This document shows, one piece after another, positions 3,688 to 58,158 of a stretch of DNA of 64,000 nucleotides; positions within the stretch are counted from its first letter, which is position 1; the number at the start of each line of letters is the position of its first letter. The stretch lies in assembly GCA_016208495.1 (NCBI GenBank), contig JACQXX010000091.1, positions 62,001-126,000 on the forward strand, written 5' to 3'. The position numbers were made by a program, and so were the translations under genes. Under the pieces are notes generated by a model. That model worked only from the letters and a program-made list of their open reading frames with translations, searched no databases and was not told where the DNA came from. The stretch comes from Acidobacteriota bacterium. Lineage in GTDB: Bacteria > Acidobacteriota > Blastocatellia > Chloracidobacteriales > Chloracidobacteriaceae.

Positions 3688-4427
3688 TTTTCCCCGCAGG
3701 GGATATTTAAAGAAGCCGTGGGTCAGCGTCAGCGCCACCCACGGTAAAGCCACCCACGGTAAAGCCACCCACGGTAAAGCCACCCACGGAGTTCAAATGT
3801 TCATTCCCAAAGATGATTTTCGTCAAACTCAATTTGATACCTGGTGAGCAACTCTTTCAGTTCCACCTCAAAAGCTGATTGATGGTGATGAATTTTTTGC
3901 CGAGAGATATACCTTTTTACAGTGTCCACACCTGATTGGCCAATGGTAAATGCTCCATACCCATCCTGCCATTCAAAATCATTGAATTTCGGGCCTTTTG
4001 TTTTTATCCATCGGGATGAATTCCTTTTGAGATCCCGAACTAAATTGCTCAAAGCTAAATTTTTTGAAAGTACAATGAGTAAATGGACATGGTTCGCAGT
4101 GCCGTTAATAGCTAAACATGGGGAATTATGTGATTTCGAAACCTGGGAAATATAGGCAAAGAGTTCAGGTTCAATGTCAGGTGAAATGATATTTCGTCTG
4201 TGTTTGGTGGAAAAAACAACATGAACAAGAAGACTTGTGAGTGATTGCCCCATAAAAATCTATTCTAAACCGCCATCGTGGGAAAGGTGACCCTTTCAGG
4301 GTCACCGGGTGGAGGGGTGGATGTACCGTGGGTGGGTGTGCCGTGGGTGGATGTACCGTGGGTGGATGTACCGTGGGTGGCGCTGACGCTGACCCACGGC
4401 TTCTTTAAATATCCCCTGCGGGGAAAA
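3688..4427. mobile_element. RAYT/REP element: IS200-like transposase flanked by 57-bp perfect inverted repeat
   Basis: A 57-bp sequence at 3688-3744 recurs as an exact inverted copy at 4371-4427. Each arm contains its own hairpin (CCGTGGGT...ACCCACGG) and the palindromic CCCCGCAGGGG. Inside the arms lie tandem CCACCCACGG-type units (left 3735-3789, right about 4321-4380). The transposase gene sits between them. This is the layout of REP/BIME arrays mobilised by a TnpA-REP protein. A decayed extra copy of the arm lies at about 3655-3700. Confidence 0.85.
3801..4253 (-). CDS. tnpA: REP-associated tyrosine transposase (Y1_Tnp, IS200/RAYT type)
   Basis: A 150-residue single-strand DNA transposase. 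It has the HUH motif (NHVHLLI), the catalytic tyrosine in VKRYISRQKIHHH, and the usual opening SLLVHVVFSTKHR. The length is normal and the frame is intact, so it may be active. ATG at 4253. The protein is expected to recognise and cut the hairpins of the surrounding REP-like repeats. The lysine-rich middle is typical of IS200-family proteins. No TnpB partner is present. Confidence 0.88.
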   Translation of the reverse strand: MGQSLTSLLVHVVFSTKHRRNIISPDIEPELFAYISQVSKSHNSPCLAINGTANHVHLLIVLSKNLALSNLVRDLKRNSSRWIKTKGPKFNDFEWQDGYGAFTIGQSGVDTVKRYISRQKIHHHQSAFEVELKELLTRYQIEFDENHLWE

Positions 4428-6631: not shown

Positions 6632-6647
6632 AACAGTTTCTCGAAAT

Positions 6648-6890
6648 TCAGGGTTCAGGGTTTCGGGGTTCAGGGTTCAGGGTTCAGGGTTCAGGGTTCA
6701 GGGTTCAGGGTTCAGGGTTCAGGGTTCAGGGTTCAGGGTTTCGGGGTTCAGGGTTCAGGGTTTCGGGGTTCAGGGTTCAGGGTTCGGGGTTCAGGGTTCA
6801 GGGTTTTCGAAATCACTCGATTTGCCAGGGAGCCAAACCATTGGAATAATTGCACTTCCCTAAACCCTGAACCCCGAACCCCGAACCCTA
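6648..6890. repeat. Large inverted GGGTTCA-repeat element between tssG and vgrG
   Basis: About 22 GGGTTCA/GGGTTTC/GGGGTTC units run from 6648 to about 6807. After a roughly 55-bp spacer come a few AACCCTGA/AACCCCGA copies in reverse orientation (6862-6890). It fills the whole gap between vgrG and tssG and could form a long hairpin in the transcript that uncouples vgrG from tssEFG. Confidence 0.85.
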
Positions 6891-10358: not shown

Positions 10359-10916
10359 GGAATTGAATTTAACTTGAGAGATACTTCTAAGTGATTTATG
10401 TGAAGCTAGTTATAGGTTTTCTGCTGGTGGGGCGATAAACGTGTCGCCTGTGAATTCAACTCTGGTCAGCAAGATTTAATTTAGAATTTAATTGACCTTG
10501 ATGATGATTGAGTGCCTTTGGGCCTGTCCTACTCAGGGCTCAGGACAATAGGCTGAGGCAAGCGGGTTTGAATCTTTGGATTGATTTTTCATCCTTCATT
10601 TTTCATTCCCTGTCCTGGGGTTTGGTCATCCAGAGGGTTAATTGAGCCAGAGCCAAAGGACAAAAAGGACAAAAAGGACGAAAAGGACGAAAAGGACCAG
10701 GTGGAAGTCGGTTTGGTGGGAGTCAGCAGGAGCGTGCGGTGAAGTGTGATGCCGCTCACGGCTTGACGAGAGTTCCAGTTGTGAGCCGGGTCACGGACTG
10801 ATTGGCCTGATTTTTGAGCTATGTGGTGCTATTTTGAGCGAAATTCAGGGTATTCTTCATTCTTCATTCTCAATTCTTCATTCTCAATTCTTCATTCTTC
10901 ATTCTTCATTCAGAGT
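10359..10916. other. Intergenic region with AAGGAC and TTCATTC repeats
   Basis: This separates the divergent tss operon and the helicase gene. It holds AAAAAGGAC/AAAAGGACG tandem units (about 10660-10700) and a run of TTCATTC/TCAATTC heptamers (about 10853-10915) that ends at the helicase start codon. No clear sigma-70 promoter was found for the helicase gene. An upstream activator site for the tss promoter would be expected at 10400-10500, but I could not assign a palindrome. Confidence 0.55.
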
Positions 10917-13900
10917 ATGCAGCCACAACCACTCGGGGAATTTCTGGCGACAACCGTTCAACAGGGGCCATTGCCTCTTTCTGAAGTCATTGCCCTCATT
11001 CTGCCCCTGATTGAACAGGTCCAGGAAACCCACCAGCAAGGTCAGGTGGCGCCACTCATCGGACTCGGTCATCTCAAGGTCTCGAATCAAAAAATCTGGT
11101 TTTATGACTTTGATGTCACCGCTCCGCACCTTCAGCCAGAAGAGGTTCGCCGGGTTGAGCGGTTTTTACGCCGACAGGAACAACACCTCTCGCAACTCCC
11201 TGCTGCTGAAGGAACCACAGCCGACGATGAAATTCCACCTCTCCAGCCAGCGTTTCTGACTGGCTACCTGACCTGGGAGCATCAGCTTGGCCATCATGAC
11301 CAGTTGACCGATATTTTTTCAGTTGGGTTAATTTTTGCGAGCCTTGCCTGTGGACTTGACCTGGATGAACCAGCCGATGTTGAACGCTTTACCAGGTTTC
11401 ATTCCGCGTTGGGTTCGCTGGCAACAGCCTTGCCTCCGGCACTGGCTCATCTGTTGCGCGCACTCACCGAATTGTCCCGGCGGCGACGGACAAAAGATCT
11501 CCAGGGGGTTCTTTCCACACTGAAGCTTCTGGCGCAAAACCCACAGGCACTGGATGAGCCGGCGCTGTTCTTGATGGAAGCCGAACACTCACAAACCTTG
11601 ACCCGTCGCCAGGCGGTTTTGCTCAGGTTGCGCAACCGATTGTTTGACCTTTCACGGCGCAATCCCTTGCTGTATTTCAAAGCCACGGGCCGAAGCCTCA
11701 ATCTGACCGTGGCTTCATTGGCCTCTTTTCATCAGGGGGATATTGCCGGTCACCTGCCACCGCTGGTCTGGAATGGCGAAGTTGTAACCCGGCTGGCTTC
11801 CGGGAGCGAAATATCACTGCTGTCACTACTGGACGCTGCCCACACCGATTTTGCTCACACGGTTCTGGATCGAATCCGACTGGAAGACCGGCGAATGCAA
11901 AACGAATTTGGATTCAGTCAGTTACGGCTGGTCGTGGCGTTTTTGCACTGGCGAAATCTGAATACCAGCCAGAATGAACCAGTTATTTCTCCATTGCTGC
12001 TTTTGCCGGTTGCGATTGAAAAACGCCGTGGAGAACGGGATGAATTTCTGCTCACACCCCAGTCCGAAGAGGCCGACGTGAACCCGGTTGTCCGACACAT
12101 TCTCAGTCAGAAACTGGGAATTATTCTACCGGAATCGGTTGCGATTGATGAGGCTTCAATTCTTGAATTTTACCGGCGGTTTGACCTGGAACTGATCCAA
12201 AAAGCGCCGGATACCACACTCCGACTGGTCACATCTCCTGAGCCAAATGCGTTGTTTCATCAAACACGAAAACAAATCGAGACGTTTCAGGCCCGAACCC
12301 AACCAGGGAGAGAGCGTGAATCCATCATTTTCGAACTCCCAGCGTCTTCGACAGTGGATGATGCTTTAACCTGGGATATTGACCTGGCGAGTGTCACGCT
12401 TGGAATTTTTAATTCTCGAAAAATGTCGCTGGTTCGTGATTTCAGCACCTTGTTTGAAAATCCATTGCTGTCATCGGCCTCATTTGACCACCTCTTTGAG
12501 ATTACGGCTCGCGATGCCCAGCCGCAGCCTTCTCTCGAAACAATCAGGACACCGATTTTGCAGGTTGTTCCCTGTGATCCATCGCAGGAAAATGCCATCG
12601 CCAGGGCCCGAATCGGAGCTCATTTCATTATTCAGGGGCCGCCAGGGACTGGGAAATCACAAACCATCACCAACCTGATTGCTGATTCTGTCGGACGTGG
12701 CAAACGGGTGCTTTTTGTGTGTGAAAAACGGGCCGCGATTGATGTGGTGTATCACCGATTGAAACAGGCTGGCCTCGGGCATTTGTGCGCGCTGATTCAC
12801 GATTCACAGGCTGACAAAAAGCGCTTTATCCAGGACCTGAAATCCCAGTTTGAACACTACAGTCAAGCTGAATCAACCTTTGTTCAGGTCAGTGCCGACC
12901 AGGAAAAGCTTCGTGAGCAATTTGTTCAGGCATTGCGCCGACACGAACAGTGGGCTGACCTGATGCGCCAGATGCTCCCTGAAGACGGCATTTCCGTGCG
13001 CGGGGCTCTCGGCAGGTTGATTGCGCTGGATGAACCCGCCCCAACCTCCTCTGAAAAAGACCTGGAAAAACTTCCTGGGTATGGGGTCTGGCTTTCCAAT
13101 GGACAGGCCGTGGTCAAACTGGCCGAAGAACTGGAATGGCAGGGCCTGGAACCGGTTTTGGGTCGTCACCCACTCCGGCAACTCACCCGGGAATTGCTGG
13201 TGCAGTCTGACCCTGTTCCCCGGTTGGAAGCAGCACTTGACCACATCAACCCACTGGTCAAACAAATCCAGGCTGCCACAGCTTTGCTACCTGATCAGCT
13301 CCACAGAGCCTCAACCATTGATGAATTCAATGCTCTGTGTTCCTATGCCCAGCAACTGATGCCGCTGGTCGAACTGGATTGCCTGGACTTGCTGAATCGA
13401 AAATCGAATGCCTATCAACAGCTCCGCGATCTGTTTCATCAATTTCTGGATTGCTCCGAAGCACTTACCCTGGCCCAAAGTCGAACCACACACTGGCGAA
13501 CCAGACTTCCTCTTTCTGAAATTGCCCTGGTGTTACCCGCGACCCGGCGAGTCGAGTCATCATTTTTGGGAGTGTTGACGCCAACCTACTGGAAACTTCG
13601 CAAACTGCTGCGAGCAGCTTATGATTTTCAGGCTCACCCGATTCAACCAACCTGGAGCACCATTTTGGAACAGCTCCAGAATGAATATGAGGTGTTTGAA
13701 GCCCTGGCCAACCTGCGCAAAACCGTCCAGGCCCGGTTTCGAGTTGAAGATCCACGACCACTCCGTGAACTGATCGAACGTCTTCACGCCGCCGAACTGG
13801 CTCTCTATCCAACCCAAAAAGCATTTCGTGCCGGGCTGATTTCAGGAAAATTTGACCCTGCCGTTTGTGTTCAGCTTGCTCAAATCCGGCACCCGGTCGA

Positions 13901-15869
13901 ATTCCTGACCCTTGAACTTGAAGAGCTTCTGGATCCGTTTGCCAATCGAACCTTTTCTGAGATTTCGGCTGATCTGGCCGAACTCCGGGCGAATCTTCCC
14001 CTGCTGGGCAAACTGCGGCTTGAACTGGCCGCTTTAGCCGGAGGGCCGGTGGAACTCCATCGAGCCGTGTGTGATTTCCCCTGGACACCGCGCCAGTTGG
14101 AAAGTGCATTGCTTACGAAAATCATTGCCCGTGCCCGGCGACTGGATCGAACGGTATTTCAAACTGATGCGGCCAAACTCGCTAAACAGGCGAATGAAGC
14201 CCGGCGACTCCATCAAAAATTGCTGACCTGTAATGCCCAGGTGGTCAGTGCCCAACCCCACGAGATTTTCCAGCAAAAACTTAAAAAAGCGGAGTTGCCG
14301 GCAGCCAGACTTCAGGATGAGGAAAAAAGCTGGAAAAAAAGGTTTAATCGAGGCAAACGGGAACTGGAACATGAATTCGGCAAAGTGATGCGGTTTCGGT
14401 CAATCCGCGATTTAGCTGAGGGTGAAACGGGCGAACTGGTTTTTGACTTAAAGCCGGTCTGGTTGATGAGTCCGCTCAGTGTTGCCGACACGCTTCCGCT
14501 TGATGGTTCCGCGTTTGACGTGGTGATTTTTGACGAAGCCAGCCAGATTCGGCTCGAAGACGCCATTCCCACGCTGTTTCGTGCGCCTCAGGCCATTGTG
14601 GTGGGTGATGAAATGCAGCTTCCGCCAACCATGTTTTTTGCCTCAAAAGCTGATCTGGATCCACCAGCGAGCCAATCTGACGAGTCTGCCGGGTTGGAAC
14701 TCGAATTTCAAACGGAAAGCCTGCTCAAACAAGCCGCCGATGTTTTACCTTCCAGTCGGCTCACCTGGCACTATCGCAGCCGATCTGAAGCCCTGATTAC
14801 TTTCTCGAACGCGGTGTTTTATGATCGGGAATTGTTGACCATTCCCGATGTCCACCCTCCGGTTCGGGTATCACCAGTTCATCCTCAAGAACCTGGTAAC
14901 CTGGTGAGGTGCGTTCTGGATCGCCCAATTGGGTTTCATTATTTAGAGGACGGGGTGTATGAGCAACGCTGCAACCGCCGTGAAGCGCGCTACATTGCAG
15001 AACTGATTCGGCAACTCCTGTCACAGCCGACCGGGTTGAGCCTGGGGGTGGTGGCTTTTTCCGAAGCTCAACAAAGTGAAATCGAACAGGCCATTTCGGA
15101 ACTGGCTGAGTCGGACCCGGTGTTTCAAACTCAGCTCGAAGCCGAGTATTTGCGTGAGCAGGATGATCAATTCTGTGGTCTGTTTGTCAAAAACCTGGAA
15201 AACGTCCAGGGCGACGAACGGGACATCATTGTCCTGAGTGTCTGTTATGGGTTTGATCGTCAGCACAAAATGCGGCAAAACTTTGGGCCGATTAACCGCG
15301 ATGGCGGCGAAAAACGATTGAACGTGGTGTTTTCTCGTGCCCGGCGGCATATGGTCGTAGTTTCGTCCATTACCCATCAAGCAATTACCAATACTTATAA
15401 TGACGGCGCCCATTGCCTGAAGACCTATCTGGCCTATGCTGAAGCGTTGTCCGCCGGACAACATCACCTGGCTCAATCCCTCATGGCCTCATTTGGTGAT
15501 ACCGGTCAGGCGATGGCTTCAACCACACTGGTGGATCCGGTCGTTGAAAGTCTGGCCGAAGCCCTGCGAGAGCAGGGTCTGATTGTTGATACCCAGATTG
15601 GCGACTCAGCCTTTCGGTGTGATCTTGCTGTCAGGCAGGCAGGTGATGACGCCTATCAGTTGGCCATTCTGGTTGATTCTGACGAGTATTATCGAACGCG
15701 CTCAGCCTTTGAACGGGCCGTGCTGCACCCGGCGCTGCTTGAGGCATTCGGCTGGAAGATGTGTTACGTTTTGGCCAGGGACTGGCAGGCAAATCCAACC
15801 AGTGTGCTTGAAAGACTCCTTCATCAGTTACGTTCAAATCGGGCTGAAGACGTGAAGACATCGGGCTGA
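10917..15869 (+). CDS. Pseudokinase-DUF4011 SF1 helicase-nuclease-fold fusion (Mokosh-like defence candidate)
   Basis: A 1650-residue multidomain protein. Residues 1-200 resemble a protein-kinase C-lobe (helix E-like stretch, YDFD in the DFG place, then TGYLTWEHQLG and LTDIFSVGLIFASLACG) but lack the Gly loop, catalytic HRD and VAIK lysine. Residues 235-256 carry the DUF4011 mark RNRLFDLSRRNPLLYF. The SF1 helicase has Walker A GPPGTGKS at 574-581, DEAS at 1206-1209, GDEMQLPP, HYRSRSEALITF, ENVQGDERDIIVLS and LNVVFSRARRHM near 1470. Residues 1540-1640 look like the MTES_1575/Vsr-type fold (FRCDLAV, D1569), but the acidic residue of the usual IE-D motif appears to be Leu. ATG 10917 is chosen because upstream codons are only translated TTCATTC repeats. 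COG1112 helicases with kinase or nuclease domains form the Mokosh anti-phage systems. Confidence 0.8.
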   Translation: MQPQPLGEFLATTVQQGPLPLSEVIALILPLIEQVQETHQQGQVAPLIGLGHLKVSNQKIWFYDFDVTAPHLQPEEVRRVERFLRRQEQHLSQLPAAEGTTADDEIPPLQPAFLTGYLTWEHQLGHHDQLTDIFSVGLIFASLACGLDLDEPADVERFTRFHSALGSLATALPPALAHLLRALTELSRRRRTKDLQGVLSTLKLLAQNPQALDEPALFLMEAEHSQTLTRRQAVLLRLRNRLFDLSRRNPLLYFKATGRSLNLTVASLASFHQGDIAGHLPPLVWNGEVVTRLASGSEISLLSLLDAAHTDFAHTVLDRIRLEDRRMQNEFGFSQLRLVVAFLHWRNLNTSQNEPVISPLLLLPVAIEKRRGERDEFLLTPQSEEADVNPVVRHILSQKLGIILPESVAIDEASILEFYRRFDLELIQKAPDTTLRLVTSPEPNALFHQTRKQIETFQARTQPGRERESIIFELPASSTVDDALTWDIDLASVTLGIFNSRKMSLVRDFSTLFENPLLSSASFDHLFEITARDAQPQPSLETIRTPILQVVPCDPSQENAIARARIGAHFIIQGPPGTGKSQTITNLIADSVGRGKRVLFVCEKRAAIDVVYHRLKQAGLGHLCALIHDSQADKKRFIQDLKSQFEHYSQAESTFVQVSADQEKLREQFVQALRRHEQWADLMRQMLPEDGISVRGALGRLIALDEPAPTSSEKDLEKLPGYGVWLSNGQAVVKLAEELEWQGLEPVLGRHPLRQLTRELLVQSDPVPRLEAALDHINPLVKQIQAATALLPDQLHRASTIDEFNALCSYAQQLMPLVELDCLDLLNRKSNAYQQLRDLFHQFLDCSEALTLAQSRTTHWRTRLPLSEIALVLPATRRVESSFLGVLTPTYWKLRKLLRAAYDFQAHPIQPTWSTILEQLQNEYEVFEALANLRKTVQARFRVEDPRPLRELIERLHAAELALYPTQKAFRAGLISGKFDPAVCVQLAQIRHPVEFLTLELEELLDPFANRTFSEISADLAELRANLPLLGKLRLELAALAGGPVELHRAVCDFPWTPRQLESALLTKIIARARRLDRTVFQTDAAKLAKQANEARRLHQKLLTCNAQVVSAQPHEIFQQKLKKAELPAARLQDEEKSWKKRFNRGKRELEHEFGKVMRFRSIRDLAEGETGELVFDLKPVWLMSPLSVADTLPLDGSAFDVVIFDEASQIRLEDAIPTLFRAPQAIVVGDEMQLPPTMFFASKADLDPPASQSDESAGLELEFQTESLLKQAADVLPSSRLTWHYRSRSEALITFSNAVFYDRELLTIPDVHPPVRVSPVHPQEPGNLVRCVLDRPIGFHYLEDGVYEQRCNRREARYIAELIRQLLSQPTGLSLGVVAFSEAQQSEIEQAISELAESDPVFQTQLEAEYLREQDDQFCGLFVKNLENVQGDERDIIVLSVCYGFDRQHKMRQNFGPINRDGGEKRLNVVFSRARRHMVVVSSITHQAITNTYNDGAHCLKTYLAYAEALSAGQHHLAQSLMASFGDTGQAMASTTLVDPVVESLAEALREQGLIVDTQIGDSAFRCDLAVRQAGDDAYQLAILVDSDEYYRTRSAFERAVLHPALLEAFGWKMCYVLARDWQANPTSVLERLLHQLRSNRAEDVKTSG

Positions 15870-15956
15870 AGACGTTGGGCTGAGGGCTGAGGGCTGAAGA
15901 AGGCGGGCCTGGATTTGATAGGTACGTCCTTCGAACCCTGAACCCTGAACCCTGCT
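15865..15956. repeat. GGGCTGA and AACCCTG repeat patch
   Basis: GGGCTGA-type heptamers overlap and follow the helicase stop (about 15865-15895). Three AACCCTG copies follow at about 15933-15954. The remaining bases to 16086 contain no clear gene or terminator. Confidence 0.65.
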
Positions 15957-34783: not shown

Positions 34784-35264
34784 GGGCGCATGTCCGTGTA
34801 AAATGAAATGTTTAGGATACTGAGCAGGATAGCCAGGACATCAAAAAAAGACGGGCTGAGAATGGTGGTCTGGGTACGACGAGTTCCTTCAACAGTGCCA
34901 CAGGTTGACGGCTTTTTGCCTGCAATTTTTTTAGTGGTGCGACAAAAAACAGCCACTCAGCCCAAGTTCTCTTCTCTGGCTCAATCAACGGTCCAGCCTG
35001 GAAAAATTGGTCAGCAGATTGATAAGGTGACAGGGAGACAGGGAGACAGGAGACAGGGAGACAGGAGACAGGGAGACAGGGAGAACAGGGTGACAGGGAG
35101 AACAGGGTGACAGGGAGACAGGAGACAGGAGACAGGGTGACAGGGTGACAAGGTGACAGGGTGACAGGGTGACAGTTAGCGAAATAGCGAAATAGTGAAA
35201 AGAAAGAATTTCGGGGTTGACAGACCCGGACTGGAAATCAAGGCTAAAGCACTTCGCTACTTCG
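34784..35264. repeat. GACAGGGA array and GCGAAATA/TTCGCTAC inverted words
   Basis: 34784-35027 shows no gene. From about 35028 to 35177 runs a dense array of 8-nt words (GACAGGGA, GTGACAGG and variants, roughly 18 copies). GCGAAATA copies (about 35177-35198) then face CTTCGCTA copies (about 35250-35282), which run into the 3' end of the gtrA gene. Confidence 0.8.
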
Positions 35265-37904: not shown

Positions 37905-38012
37905 AAGTGGTTAGTGGTTAGTGATTAGTGGTTAGTGATTAGTGGTTAGTGGTTAGTGGTTAGAAATCAATACTTTCGAAGAACCACTAACCACTAACCA
38001 CTTTCTTCATTC
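37905..38012. repeat. GTGGTTA inverted element with 22-bp core
   Basis: GTGGTTAGTG/GTGATTA words (about 37908-37962), core AGAAATCAAT...CGAAGAA at 37962-37983, then ACCACTA words (37983-38002) and TTCATTC. The 3' end of the histidine-kinase gene is inside this element. Confidence 0.88.
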
Positions 38013-44435: not shown

Positions 44436-47400
44436 ATGTCTCACGCAGGTTTTCGTTTGCTCAAGGCTACGTTCATGGCTGTCGTTGTACTGGAACTCAT
44501 AGGCTGTATTGGGCTCACGGCTTCGTTGACCAGTCAGGCTGCTGTTTACCCACAATCAAGCCAGGCTGAGAAATCCAGTATTCCAATCCTCATCCCTGGT
44601 CGTGAAGAATCATTTTCGTTCGAACAAATGCCCGCACAGTCGTACACGGTTGATCTCAACGCCGGCCAGTTTGCGGTGGTGCGGGTGACTCAGCGAGGAG
44701 TTGATGTGCAGATCAAAGTCACGGCGCCGGATGGCTCTCTCATTGTCAACGCCAATCGAATGAATGCCCTCAATGGCGAAGAGCCAGTTTATCTCCTGGC
44801 TGCGACCCCAGGGCGGTACCAACTGGATGTTAGCCCGGTTGAGGGAATTCCGCAGGGAAGTTCATATCTGATTCAACTGCTTGAGATTCGGCAACCAACC
44901 GAAACCGATCAGGCACGGGTGCTGGCCCAAAAATATTTTGCCGAAGCCGAAGTCCAACTCGCCAAAGGTACGGCAGAAGGGTTGATGAAAGCAATTGAAG
45001 GGTATGAAAAAGCCATTCCTTTTTATAAGCAAACTGATGATCTCTATGGTGAAGCCAATGTCTTGACCAACATCGGCGCCATGTCAATGCGGTTGCGAAA
45101 ACTGGATACTGCCGTCATTTGCTTTGAAAAAGCGCTGCCGATGTGGGAAAAGCTGAATGATAACAACAGTTTAACGGTAACTATGGCTCAGCTTGGGCAA
45201 ATCTTATTTTCTGAAGGCAAATTTGATAAAGCCAGACTGTATTTTGAGCGTGGACTCGAACTGAGCCGCAGTATTGATGACCAGCAAGCCGAGGGAATTT
45301 CACTGTTTTCGCTGGGTTTGATCCAGAACTCTTTAGGGGATTTTGGATCAGCCCTCGAGTACTTCCGACAAGCAGAAGTGATTTTCACAAAGCTTGGCAT
45401 GCATTTTCTTCAAGCTGGAGTCAAACTCAGAATCGGAGAAACTCTCTTTCATCTGGGTGAGGCCGTGGAGGCGATTAACCCCCTTGAAGAGGCTATCCGG
45501 ATGTTTAAAAGCTTGAATAATCGCTGGTATTACTCACTTACTCTCGTGATATATGGGAATGTGTTTCGAGTCTTAGGGGATTATCAGAAAGCATTGGCAG
45601 TCTTGCAGGAAGCATTGGAGATCAAAAAACAAATTGGAGACCTGAGTGGACAGGCGTTTGTACTGAATTCGCTGGGAGTTTTATATAAAACCCTTGGAAA
45701 TAATCTCAAAGCAATTGACTGTTACCAGTCGGCACTTGCCATCCGCGAGACCCAAAAGGATTTACCTGGGCAGGCATCAACGCTCCACAACCTGGGCGAC
45801 GCTTACGGAGCAAATGGGGAGTTTGAACTGGCCCTCACTATTTTACAAAAATCGTTAACTCTCTCAAAAGCACTTGGGAATTCTCGACTGCAAATTCAAA
45901 CCCAACAGGACATTGGGCTGGCATATCGTGCATTGAAAAGAATTCCTGAAGCCGAACAAATCTTTCAGGAAACACTGAGTCAGGCAATAAACCTCAAGCA
46001 ACAAGACCAGTTAGGAAATCTGTACTTTCAACTTGGTCAGTTTGCCTCAGAACGGAAAGACTGGGTCAAGGCCCAGGATTTGTATCAACAGTCAATCAAA
46101 TTCACTGAAAAACTCCTTTCCCCACTTGAACATGCCCAGTCATTGAAAGGTCTGGCTGAGACCGAAGTGAACCTGGGAAACTACCGGAAAGCGCGTGAAC
46201 TTGGGTTGGAATCGGTCCTTTTGTTTGATCGGCTGCGTTCAAATCTGGTGCAATCTGATCTTCGGCTCTCGTTTCAATCAAGTCAAGCCAGGAATTACAA
46301 AGAACTGGTCATGTTGTTTTTGCTCCTGCATCAAAAAGATCCCAACCAGGGACACGACCGCATTGCTTTTGAAATCAGCGAGCGAGCCAGGGCCCGGGTA
46401 CTGTTGGAATTGCTGACTGAAAGCAAAGTGGACATTCGCGAAGGATGTGACCCGACGCTTTTGGCTGAAGAAAAGAAACTCCGGCAAACCCTGACAGCGA
46501 AATATGCCGCCTGGACGGAATTGCTTGGAAAGGTACATAAGGTGGACCAGGAGGTAAAACTCAAACGCGATATCCAAAGTACCGAATCCGCCCTTCAGCA
46601 ACTGGACGCCAAAATCCGGGAAACCAGCCCCAAATATGCGGCTTTAACTCAGATTCAGCCGCTCACCACCGACCAGATCCAGCAGGTGATTTCCGCCGAT
46701 ACCCAACTGGTTGAGTATAGTTTTCGAGAAGTAAACAGCTATGCCTGGGTTGTCACTCCAAACAACCTGGCCTATGTGGTCCTGCCTGGAAAAGAGAAAC
46801 TCGACCCGGTCATTGAAAAAGTGTCAGACGCCCTTACTCAACTCCAACCCCAACCACAACTTGACGTTGCCGAACGAAAACGCGTCAGAGCCGAAGCTGA
46901 AACCCGGTACTGGAAAGCTGCCACTGAATTGAGTGAGTTGATTCTGGAACCGCTCCGCCCGCATTTAAAAGGTCCACGGCTGCTGCTGGTGGCCGATGGC
47001 AAACTCCAGTATATCCCCTTTGCCGCCTTGCCATTTTCGAAAGAAAATCCTGAGCGAGAAACCAAACCAGTCGCTGAATTGCTCTCAAAAGAGAAGAAAA
47101 ACCCTGAACCCCGAACCCTGAACCCTGAACCCCAGGCAGTTCTTCTCGACTCGTTCGAACTCATTACCTTGCCTTCAGCTTCAATCTTAACGGCGCTTTC
47201 CAAACCGGACACCACCAACCGGCCCCAAAGGCTGGCAATTTTCGCCGACCCGGTCTTTCGATCCGAGGAAGTTCCGGTTACAAACCAATCGGCGCCGCTT
47301 GAGCACGCAACTCCCAACCGAAATTTGACCAAAGCTGAGTTACTCGGCAAGCCAACGACTGAACAACCACGGGAACCGGCGATAGTTCAACAATTAAACA

Positions 47401-47984: not shown

Positions 47985-48192
47985 GAAGAAAGTGGCTAGT
48001 GGCTAGTGGTTAGTGGTTAGAAATCAATACTTTCGAAGAAAAGTGGTTAGTGGCTAGTGGTTAGAAATCAATACTTTCGAAGAAACGTTGGAAGCCAAGA
48101 ACTAACCACTAACCACTAACCACTAACCACTAACCACTAACCACTAACCACTAACTACCACTAACCACTCAATGGTTTCTTCATTCTTCATT
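47985..48192. repeat. GTGGTTA element with two copies of the 22-bp core
   Basis: GTGGCTA/GTGGTTA words precede core copies at 48019-48040 and 48063-48084. Eight to nine ACCACTA words in reverse run from about 48103 to 48168, then TTCATTC. It lies between the convergent CHAT gene and egtD and fills the gap. Confidence 0.88.
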
Positions 48193-57980: not shown

Positions 57981-58158
57981 GGTTCAGGGTTCAGGGAAAG
58001 GAAAGTCAAAAGGACGAAAAGGACATAAAGGACGAAAAGGACATAAATTCGAAGACCCTGAACCCTGAACCCTGAACCCTGAACCCTGAACCCTGAACCC
58101 TGAACCCTGAACCCTGAACCCTGAACCCTGAACCCTGAACCCTGAACCCTGAACCCTG
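57979..58158. repeat. Inverted GGGTTCA element overlapping the nadE 5' end
   Basis: Two and a half GGGTTCA copies (57979-57996) face about 15 AACCCTG copies (58055-58158). The spacer holds AAAAGGACATAAAGGACG-type words. The right arm abuts, and reads into, the codons of the next gene. Confidence 0.9.

Follow-up and report, generated by a model that had tools for sequence, protein, structure and literature searches.

P0001, the 1650-residue protein encoded at positions 10917–15869 (+ strand) of the 64-kb stretch of DNA analyzed here (the window), is best explained as a solitary member of an undescribed family in which a sensor/motor helicase is normally coupled to an M48-type peptidase encoded upstream, a reading to which we give roughly an even chance of being right. 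The family is composed of known modules in a new combination. The catalytic columns of the helicase are conserved in 25 of 25 aligned family rows, as against 0 of 25 for the catalytic Asp of the kinase-like lobe and 0 of 25 for the catalytic Glu of the nuclease-like domain, and selection therefore appears to maintain a motor and not three enzymes. The family has thus kept its motor and discarded both catalytic domains, most members having a peptidase and DNA-end-binding modules instead, and the family-level cassette is of more interest than the window copy itself.

Domain architecture of P0001

The reading frame is free of stop codons over its 1650 codons, has 25 orthologous loci elsewhere, and encodes, all on the + strand, a kinase C-lobe-like domain (residues 1–236; 10917–11624), a DUF4011 domain (residues 241–395; 11637–12101; Pfam PF13195, E 5e-13), an SF1 helicase and an MTES_1575 (Vsr-like) domain (residues 1544–1638; 15546–15830; Pfam, E 3e-17). 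A preliminary description of this DNA had placed these modules in one chain, and the open frame does join a pseudokinase to an SF1 helicase with all its motifs and a Vsr-like domain that is probably dead. An alternative upstream start, ATG at 10821, would add codons that are mostly a translated ATTCTTC repeat (10852–10911); 10917 is the better start because the extension is mostly repeat and homology begins at residue 7.

Helicase domain 1A (AAA_11, residues 554–657; 12576–12887; Pfam, E 4e-21) contains the Walker A sequence GPPGTGKS (residues 574–581; 12636–12659), and the Walker B/motif II sequence DEASQ lies at residues 1206–1210 (14532–14546). Domain 2A (AAA_12, residues 1268–1484; 14718–15368; Pfam, E 2e-17) carries motifs IV–VI. 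Motifs I, II, III, IV, V and VI are all present, as originally described, and their key residues are identical in 25/25 family rows, including Lys580 of Walker A, Asp1206 and Glu1207 of motif II, and Arg1287, Gln1431 and Arg1474 of domain 2A. These 25-row column counts leave out locus L058, whose protein is without the kinase-like lobe.

No Pfam kinase match was obtained for residues 1–236, whether the whole protein or the N-terminus alone was scanned. In a 373-protein set, residues 7–216 nevertheless gave an alignment to genuine Ser/Thr kinases of the window's phylum (28% identity, E 1e-9) that runs from the hinge as far as helix I. An AlphaFold model of the lobe built with 19 family rows (pLDDT 85.1, pTM 0.82) has the helix and strand order of a kinase C-lobe, and its top PDB match by Foldseek was M. 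tuberculosis PknB (E 9e-5, probability 1.00). Superposition on PknB by VIA gave Z 14.0 over 156 residues at 3.0 Å, aligned to PknB residues 95–278, past the N-lobe. As modeled, the N-terminus is a kinase C-lobe alone, without the N-lobe.

The HRD position of the lobe reads APL in P0001, the family HRD region reads V-A-P-L, and the HRD Asp is kept in 0/25 rows. The DFG position is DFD in P0001 and is not conserved across the family. Scaffold residues are kept, namely the APE Glu (E121; 23/25, with Asp in the other two), the helix-F Asp (D132; 24/25), and Gly137 and Arg191 (both 25/25). With a kinase fold that scores Z 14 against PknB and an HRD Asp lost from 25/25 rows, the lobe has the hallmarks of a pseudokinase. 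The kinase C-lobe devoid of catalytic residues that was first proposed from the letters alone was therefore borne out by structure prediction where Pfam was silent, with the addition that the N-lobe is also missing. It extends the bacterial pseudokinases to an N-lobe-less scaffold overlooked by Pfam.

At the other end of the protein, nine ordinary DUF4011 proteins share the MTES_1575 pattern R-x-D ... G-x-E-x-D-G ... Y-H, for which P0001 has R-C-D ... A-I-L-V-D-S ... Y-Y. Asp1569 and Asp1587 are retained (21/25 and 23/25 rows, respectively), while the catalytic Glu is replaced by Leu1585 (15669–15671), as had been suspected, and the His by Tyr1592. The active site of such domains (Asp, Glu-x-Asp, His) is accordingly incomplete in P0001, and the suggestion that the nuclease may be inactive is strengthened to probably dead, judging by alignment. 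The Glu position is occupied by Leu in 20 rows, Met in 3, Ile in 1 and Phe in 1, compared with Glu in 9/9 ordinary DUF4011 proteins. Because Glu is absent from all 25 family rows, its loss looks ancestral to the family and not a defect of the window copy. The degenerate domain is probably a binding module; given the two acidic residues that it keeps (D1569, D1587), it may still have residual or altered activity.

Distribution of the family

When a P0001-led alignment was used to scan the genomes of 84,980 species, at least 80 loci were obtained, at least 19 of them full-length or near-full-length relatives (790–1170 summed bits) separated by a sharp gap from the other DUF4011 proteins of the same scan (~300 bits). 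With at least 19 such relatives from one scan, the architecture is far beyond chance. Leaving out the window, 25 distinct orthologous loci were read in all; their record titles assign them to Verrucomicrobiota, Planctomycetota, Myxococcota, Pseudomonadota, Bacteroidota and Actinomycetota, with one possibly misassigned record in Bacillota. L145 is a duplicate of L046. A contig-edge fragment, L056, may be another relative.

A profile of the kinase-like lobe matched 1/247 genomes in the phylum of the window (that of the window itself), 3/200 in the order of Lysobacter, 3/218 Bacteroidota and 4/213 Verrucomicrobiota, each sample including the genome on which it was centred. The family is sporadic, being carried by about 0.4–2% of sampled genomes, and is not a housekeeping gene of the kind that would have spoken against the preliminary description. 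A phylum-wide search with residues 1–398 found, besides the gene itself, only generic kinases or DUF4011 proteins.

In a quick maximum-likelihood tree, limited by long outgroup branches, all 26 rows formed one clade (100% SH-aLRT) with the phyla mixed, P0001 adjoining one Verrucomicrobia and one Myxococcota sequence. Outside the family, none of the DUF4011 proteins of the fetched loci was matched by the N-terminal HMM. What had been called a distinct subtype is thus a separate clade marked by an N-terminal lobe that the other DUF4011 proteins of those loci do not have. No description of the family or the cassette was found in the databases and literature searched, a weak negative given that most subscription papers lie outside that coverage. 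The Chitinophaga japonensis orthologue (L058, 7938–12197) is without kinase-like lobe, peptidase and WGR domain, a reduction parallel to that of the window copy.

Partner peptidase and C-terminal modules

At 22/25 loci the gene immediately upstream of the helicase, in the same orientation, encodes a soluble zinc metallopeptidase of ~400 residues, often with a 4-bp stop/start overlap (for example L041, 6781–7983, from a Verrucomicrobia MAG, with equivalents in 21 other loci, among them L062 from a Sphingobacteriales MAG); L053, L058 and L147 are the loci without it. The peptidase matches Pfam Peptidase_M48 (best E 4e-9), and its HExxH motif and later Glu (H126, E127, H130, E173) are invariant in 12 aligned rows. 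Its model (pLDDT 88.6) has an M48-like fold, matching ZMPSTE24, BepA and Ste24 at Z 9–10. A weak SprT-like match was seen in L043 (PF10263, 6e-7), and the peptidase also has a weak fold match to a DPC protease (6mdw). No PADLOC model matched the peptidase, and NCBIfam matches were weak and of HtpX/SprT type only. The C-terminal half is all-helical, and a Pfam scan of it gave nothing significant; it has, as an impression, a TerB-like look.

Among 200 genomes of one order, the 3 helicase-bearing genomes, and no others, had a close peptidase homologue (>430 bits). No peptidase was detected in the 64-kb window by tblastn with 12 partner peptidases, and the window's genome contains no close homologue, only two partial matches to generic M48 proteins. 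The preliminary view of a one-gene system consequently holds for the window copy, which is solitary, but not for the family, since 22/25 relatives form a two-gene cassette with the M48-type peptidase.

A WGR domain ends 17/25 relatives (E 3e-11 to 5e-20). In L050, from a Deltaproteobacteria/Myxococcota MAG, a BRCT domain takes its place (~13170–13366; E 1e-4, just above Pfam's cut-off). Both WGR and BRCT are DNA-break-recognition modules. Their exchange at the same position, together with the precedent of PARP2, which binds DNA breaks via its WGR domain (PMC10722394), suggests by analogy that the tail of the family may recognise DNA breaks. Neither domain is present in P0001 or its sister L046.

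Comparison with known systems

Helicases of the DUF4011/COG1112 type recur in several defence systems, and to our knowledge little is understood of how such helicases link sensing to an effector. The best profile match of P0001 was PDC-S37 (705 bits), followed by Hhe (356) and MkoA (140, over residues 114–1511). Like PDC-S37/ProA, P0001 has a DUF4011-type SF1 helicase followed by an MTES_1575-like region, the match covering residues ~479–1645 and excluding the kinase-like domain; the NCBIfam score for ProA (NF058533) was 686 bits, where the cut-off is 1500. No peptidase partner for ProA/PDC-S37 was found in the family libraries searched. Hhe (NF042953), a DUF4011 domain-containing anti-phage protein, shares the DUF4011, SF1 helicase and MTES_1575 modules and scored 486 bits, its cut-off being 2000. 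By these curated cut-offs P0001 is not ProA or Hhe. Ordinary DUF4011 proteins, for their part, start at DUF4011, keep the nuclease Glu and His, and have a C-terminal extension beyond MTES_1575.

P0001 resembles the DLHK bacterial pseudokinases in being fused to a helicase. DLHK proteins are cytosolic, are fused to a DEAD-like/DNA2-type helicase, keep the HRD Asp and are described with beta-2/beta-3 N-lobe features (PMC12599244); in the P0001 family the N-lobe is absent and the HRD Asp is replaced throughout. The giant MTES_1575-type proteins, which combine HEPN, transglutaminase, SF1 helicase, Vsr and wHTH domains (PMC3710099), likewise fuse an SF1 helicase to a Vsr-fold domain with no methylase. 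Unlike them, the family has no HEPN or transglutaminase domain, has lost the Vsr Glu, and in its relatives has WGR or BRCT in place of the wHTH/DUF3320 C-terminus. Hachiman HamAB, in which a sensor helicase gates an effector (PMC12278908), is comparable in its way of working only, as it uses another helicase family and a nuclease effector where the relatives of P0001 have a peptidase.

Proposed function

Judged from sequence and gene order, the family is most likely an ATP-driven nucleic-acid sensor that would normally control a peptidase, either in a DNA-damage response or in a conflict system. Starting from the observed architecture, ATPase motifs, dead sites, peptidase linkage and sporadic spread, we infer the activation, the target and the physiological outcome as follows. 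The helicase, as the sole engine, would load on a nucleic-acid structure such as a DNA end, a flap or branched DNA, with the degenerate Vsr domain and WGR or BRCT serving as DNA-binding modules. ATP-driven movement would then alter the shape of the complex, and the pseudokinase lobe would dock a partner protein; docking or the change in shape would switch or deliver the peptidase, which would cut a protein target. The cell might thereby respond to genome damage, or the system might act in conflict or against phage. The window copy, having lost the peptidase and WGR or never had them, would be an ATP-driven binder or remodeller only, or would act with an unlinked partner.

Gating of the peptidase is deduced from the operon structure. 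The upstream position in 22/25 loci, the co-occurrence in the same three genomes, the invariant HExxH and later Glu, and the M48-like fold all count for the sensor–peptidase reading, as do the precedents of Hachiman HamAB and of IrrE/DdrO, in which a metallopeptidase is triggered by DNA damage (PMC8533742). Its DNA-sensing part is favored by the WGR domains of 17/25 relatives and the BRCT domain of L050. Counting against the sensor–peptidase reading are the two acidic residues still present in the nuclease-like domain and a simple consensus scan upstream of the cassettes, which found no consistent LexA/SOS-type box; furthermore, with peptidase and WGR missing, the proposed output cannot operate in the window copy unless another protein substitutes. 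A narrower version is put forward tentatively, as a rather unlikely one: a proteolytic genome-integrity switch, in which a helicase set between two dead domains would sense broken DNA via WGR or BRCT and trigger the M48-type peptidase, and of which the window's solo copy would retain just the motor. No bacterial DNA-damage-to-proteolysis module of such composition was found in the family libraries or literature searched. If the coupling is real, the cassette offers a simple two-gene system for studying how an SF1 helicase controls a protease.

Alternative explanations

The outcome could instead be anti-phage defence as in the DUF4011/COG1112 group (Hhe, PDC-S37, ProA, Mokosh), the helicase sensing phage nucleic acid and the peptidase, where the cassette is complete, killing or arresting the cell. 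This is a possibility of some weight, if still short of an even one: the best profile matches are defence helicases (PDC-S37 705, ProA 686, Hhe 486 bits), and the phyletic pattern is sporadic with phyla mixed in the tree, yet the NCBIfam scores fall far under the ProA and Hhe cut-offs. A PADLOC (2023) survey reaching ~6.5 kb to each side, with crude gene calls in GC-rich loci, took in the neighbours of the window gene as well as those at the 25 loci and gave strong matches for only one retron-like RT and one helicase protein; a defence-island signal is essentially absent, in line with the earlier remark that this is not a classic defence island. Also against defence, no full-length family member was found in 72,556 plasmids or 50,697 phage records, versus 417 plasmids matched by other DUF4011 helicases. 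The IMG/VR scans of viral contigs found neither the helicase family nor the partner peptidase, a single-protein pattern search of viral contigs found no close relatives, and no partner peptidase was found on plasmids. That apparent absence from mobile elements would suit another kind of module, chromosomal and devoted to DNA repair or genome maintenance; its peptidase and helicase, recruited by WGR or BRCT, might for instance remove DNA-bound or crosslinked proteins. The WGR or BRCT C-termini and the weak SprT-like and DPC protease matches point the same way; a distribution too sporadic for core repair, the lack of an SOS-like operator in the scan and a peptidase structure that is M48-like rather than SprT-like do not, and we consider this module unlikely, though worth keeping in view.

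A true Mokosh subtype, which the preliminary description had suggested by resemblance, or a T6SS-associated effector or immunity gene is highly improbable. Mokosh systems are defined by the combination of a COG1112 helicase and a PLD nuclease, to which type I adds an STK domain (PMC11672841; PMC10952713). P0001 has a helicase of the same broad group as the COG1112-type SF1 RNA helicase of Mokosh and, in a layout like that of type I (MkoA/MkoB), a kinase-like domain, and it adjoins VgrG–TssGFE. In contrast to Mokosh I and II (MkoC), a Vsr-like domain stands in place of PLD, no PLD domain being found in P0001 or the ten window neighbours scanned, and the relatives have a peptidase partner. Where type I has a Ser/Thr kinase, P0001 has the kinase fold as a non-catalytic C-lobe only, without the HRD Asp, and its MkoA score is five-fold lower than that for PDC-S37. 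The T6SS genes reported beside P0001 are genuine (VgrG, TssG, TssF, TssE/gp25), but their proximity is incidental: none of the 25 orthologous loci had a match to the window's T6SS proteins, and the T6SS cluster (TssGFE) of the nearest related genome, G001, lacks this gene. The effector/immunity reading was rejected on these grounds. The last alternative concerns the window copy alone, which may be a decaying orphan, severed from peptidase and WGR by recombination between flanking repeat tracts and heading for loss. Both partners are indeed missing and repeat arrays lie exactly at both gene ends. The ORF is intact, however, and P0001 deviates at 5.4% of the columns that are near-invariant in other rows (family range 0–12%), including only 1/116 such columns in the helicase 2A part. 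Loss of WGR may be older, since the sister L046 is also without it. GC and GC3 of the gene are ordinary for the window. By these comparisons the copy does not obviously look to be decaying, and we regard an orphan on its way out as doubtful.

Additional observations on the loci

Integration next to tRNA genes was considered and set aside, with tRNAs at just 5/25 loci. The strong PADLOC helicase match may, from ORF reading, be the gene of L055 beside DNA-ligase-associated-looking repair genes. The RT (set A4, probably L047 1948–3298) matches type VI reverse-transcriptase models at 2e-53; L047 has an RT-sized ORF with a small HTH-like ORF ahead of it, and this may be a retron-like element ~3.4 kb upstream of the cassette. 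An IS200-like Y1 transposase gene lies near the T6SS cluster of the window (3801–4253).

The ATTCTTC heptanucleotide array at 10852–10911 is immediately 5' of the P0001 start codon, where no peptidase gene is present, and GGGCTGA/TGAAGACG and GAACCCT repeats occupy 15843–15955 at the 3' end, containing the last ~10 P0001 codons at the point where most relatives continue into WGR. Mostly intergenic tandem arrays of several unrelated units occur throughout the genome, heptanucleotide as well as 8- and 9-bp, with units that include AACCCTG, ATTCTTC, AGTGGTT, GGGCTGA and AAAGGACGA. Those of the window include 6647–6805, 10852–10911, 15877–15954, 35026–35175, 37906–37963, 47100–47132, 48101–48169 and 58055–58158. 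In the 8.4 Mb searched, GAACCCTGAACCCTGAACCCT occurred in 1141 copies and CATTCTTCATTCTTCATTC in 161, compared with 0 for the reversed control of the former and 0 for the control of the latter.
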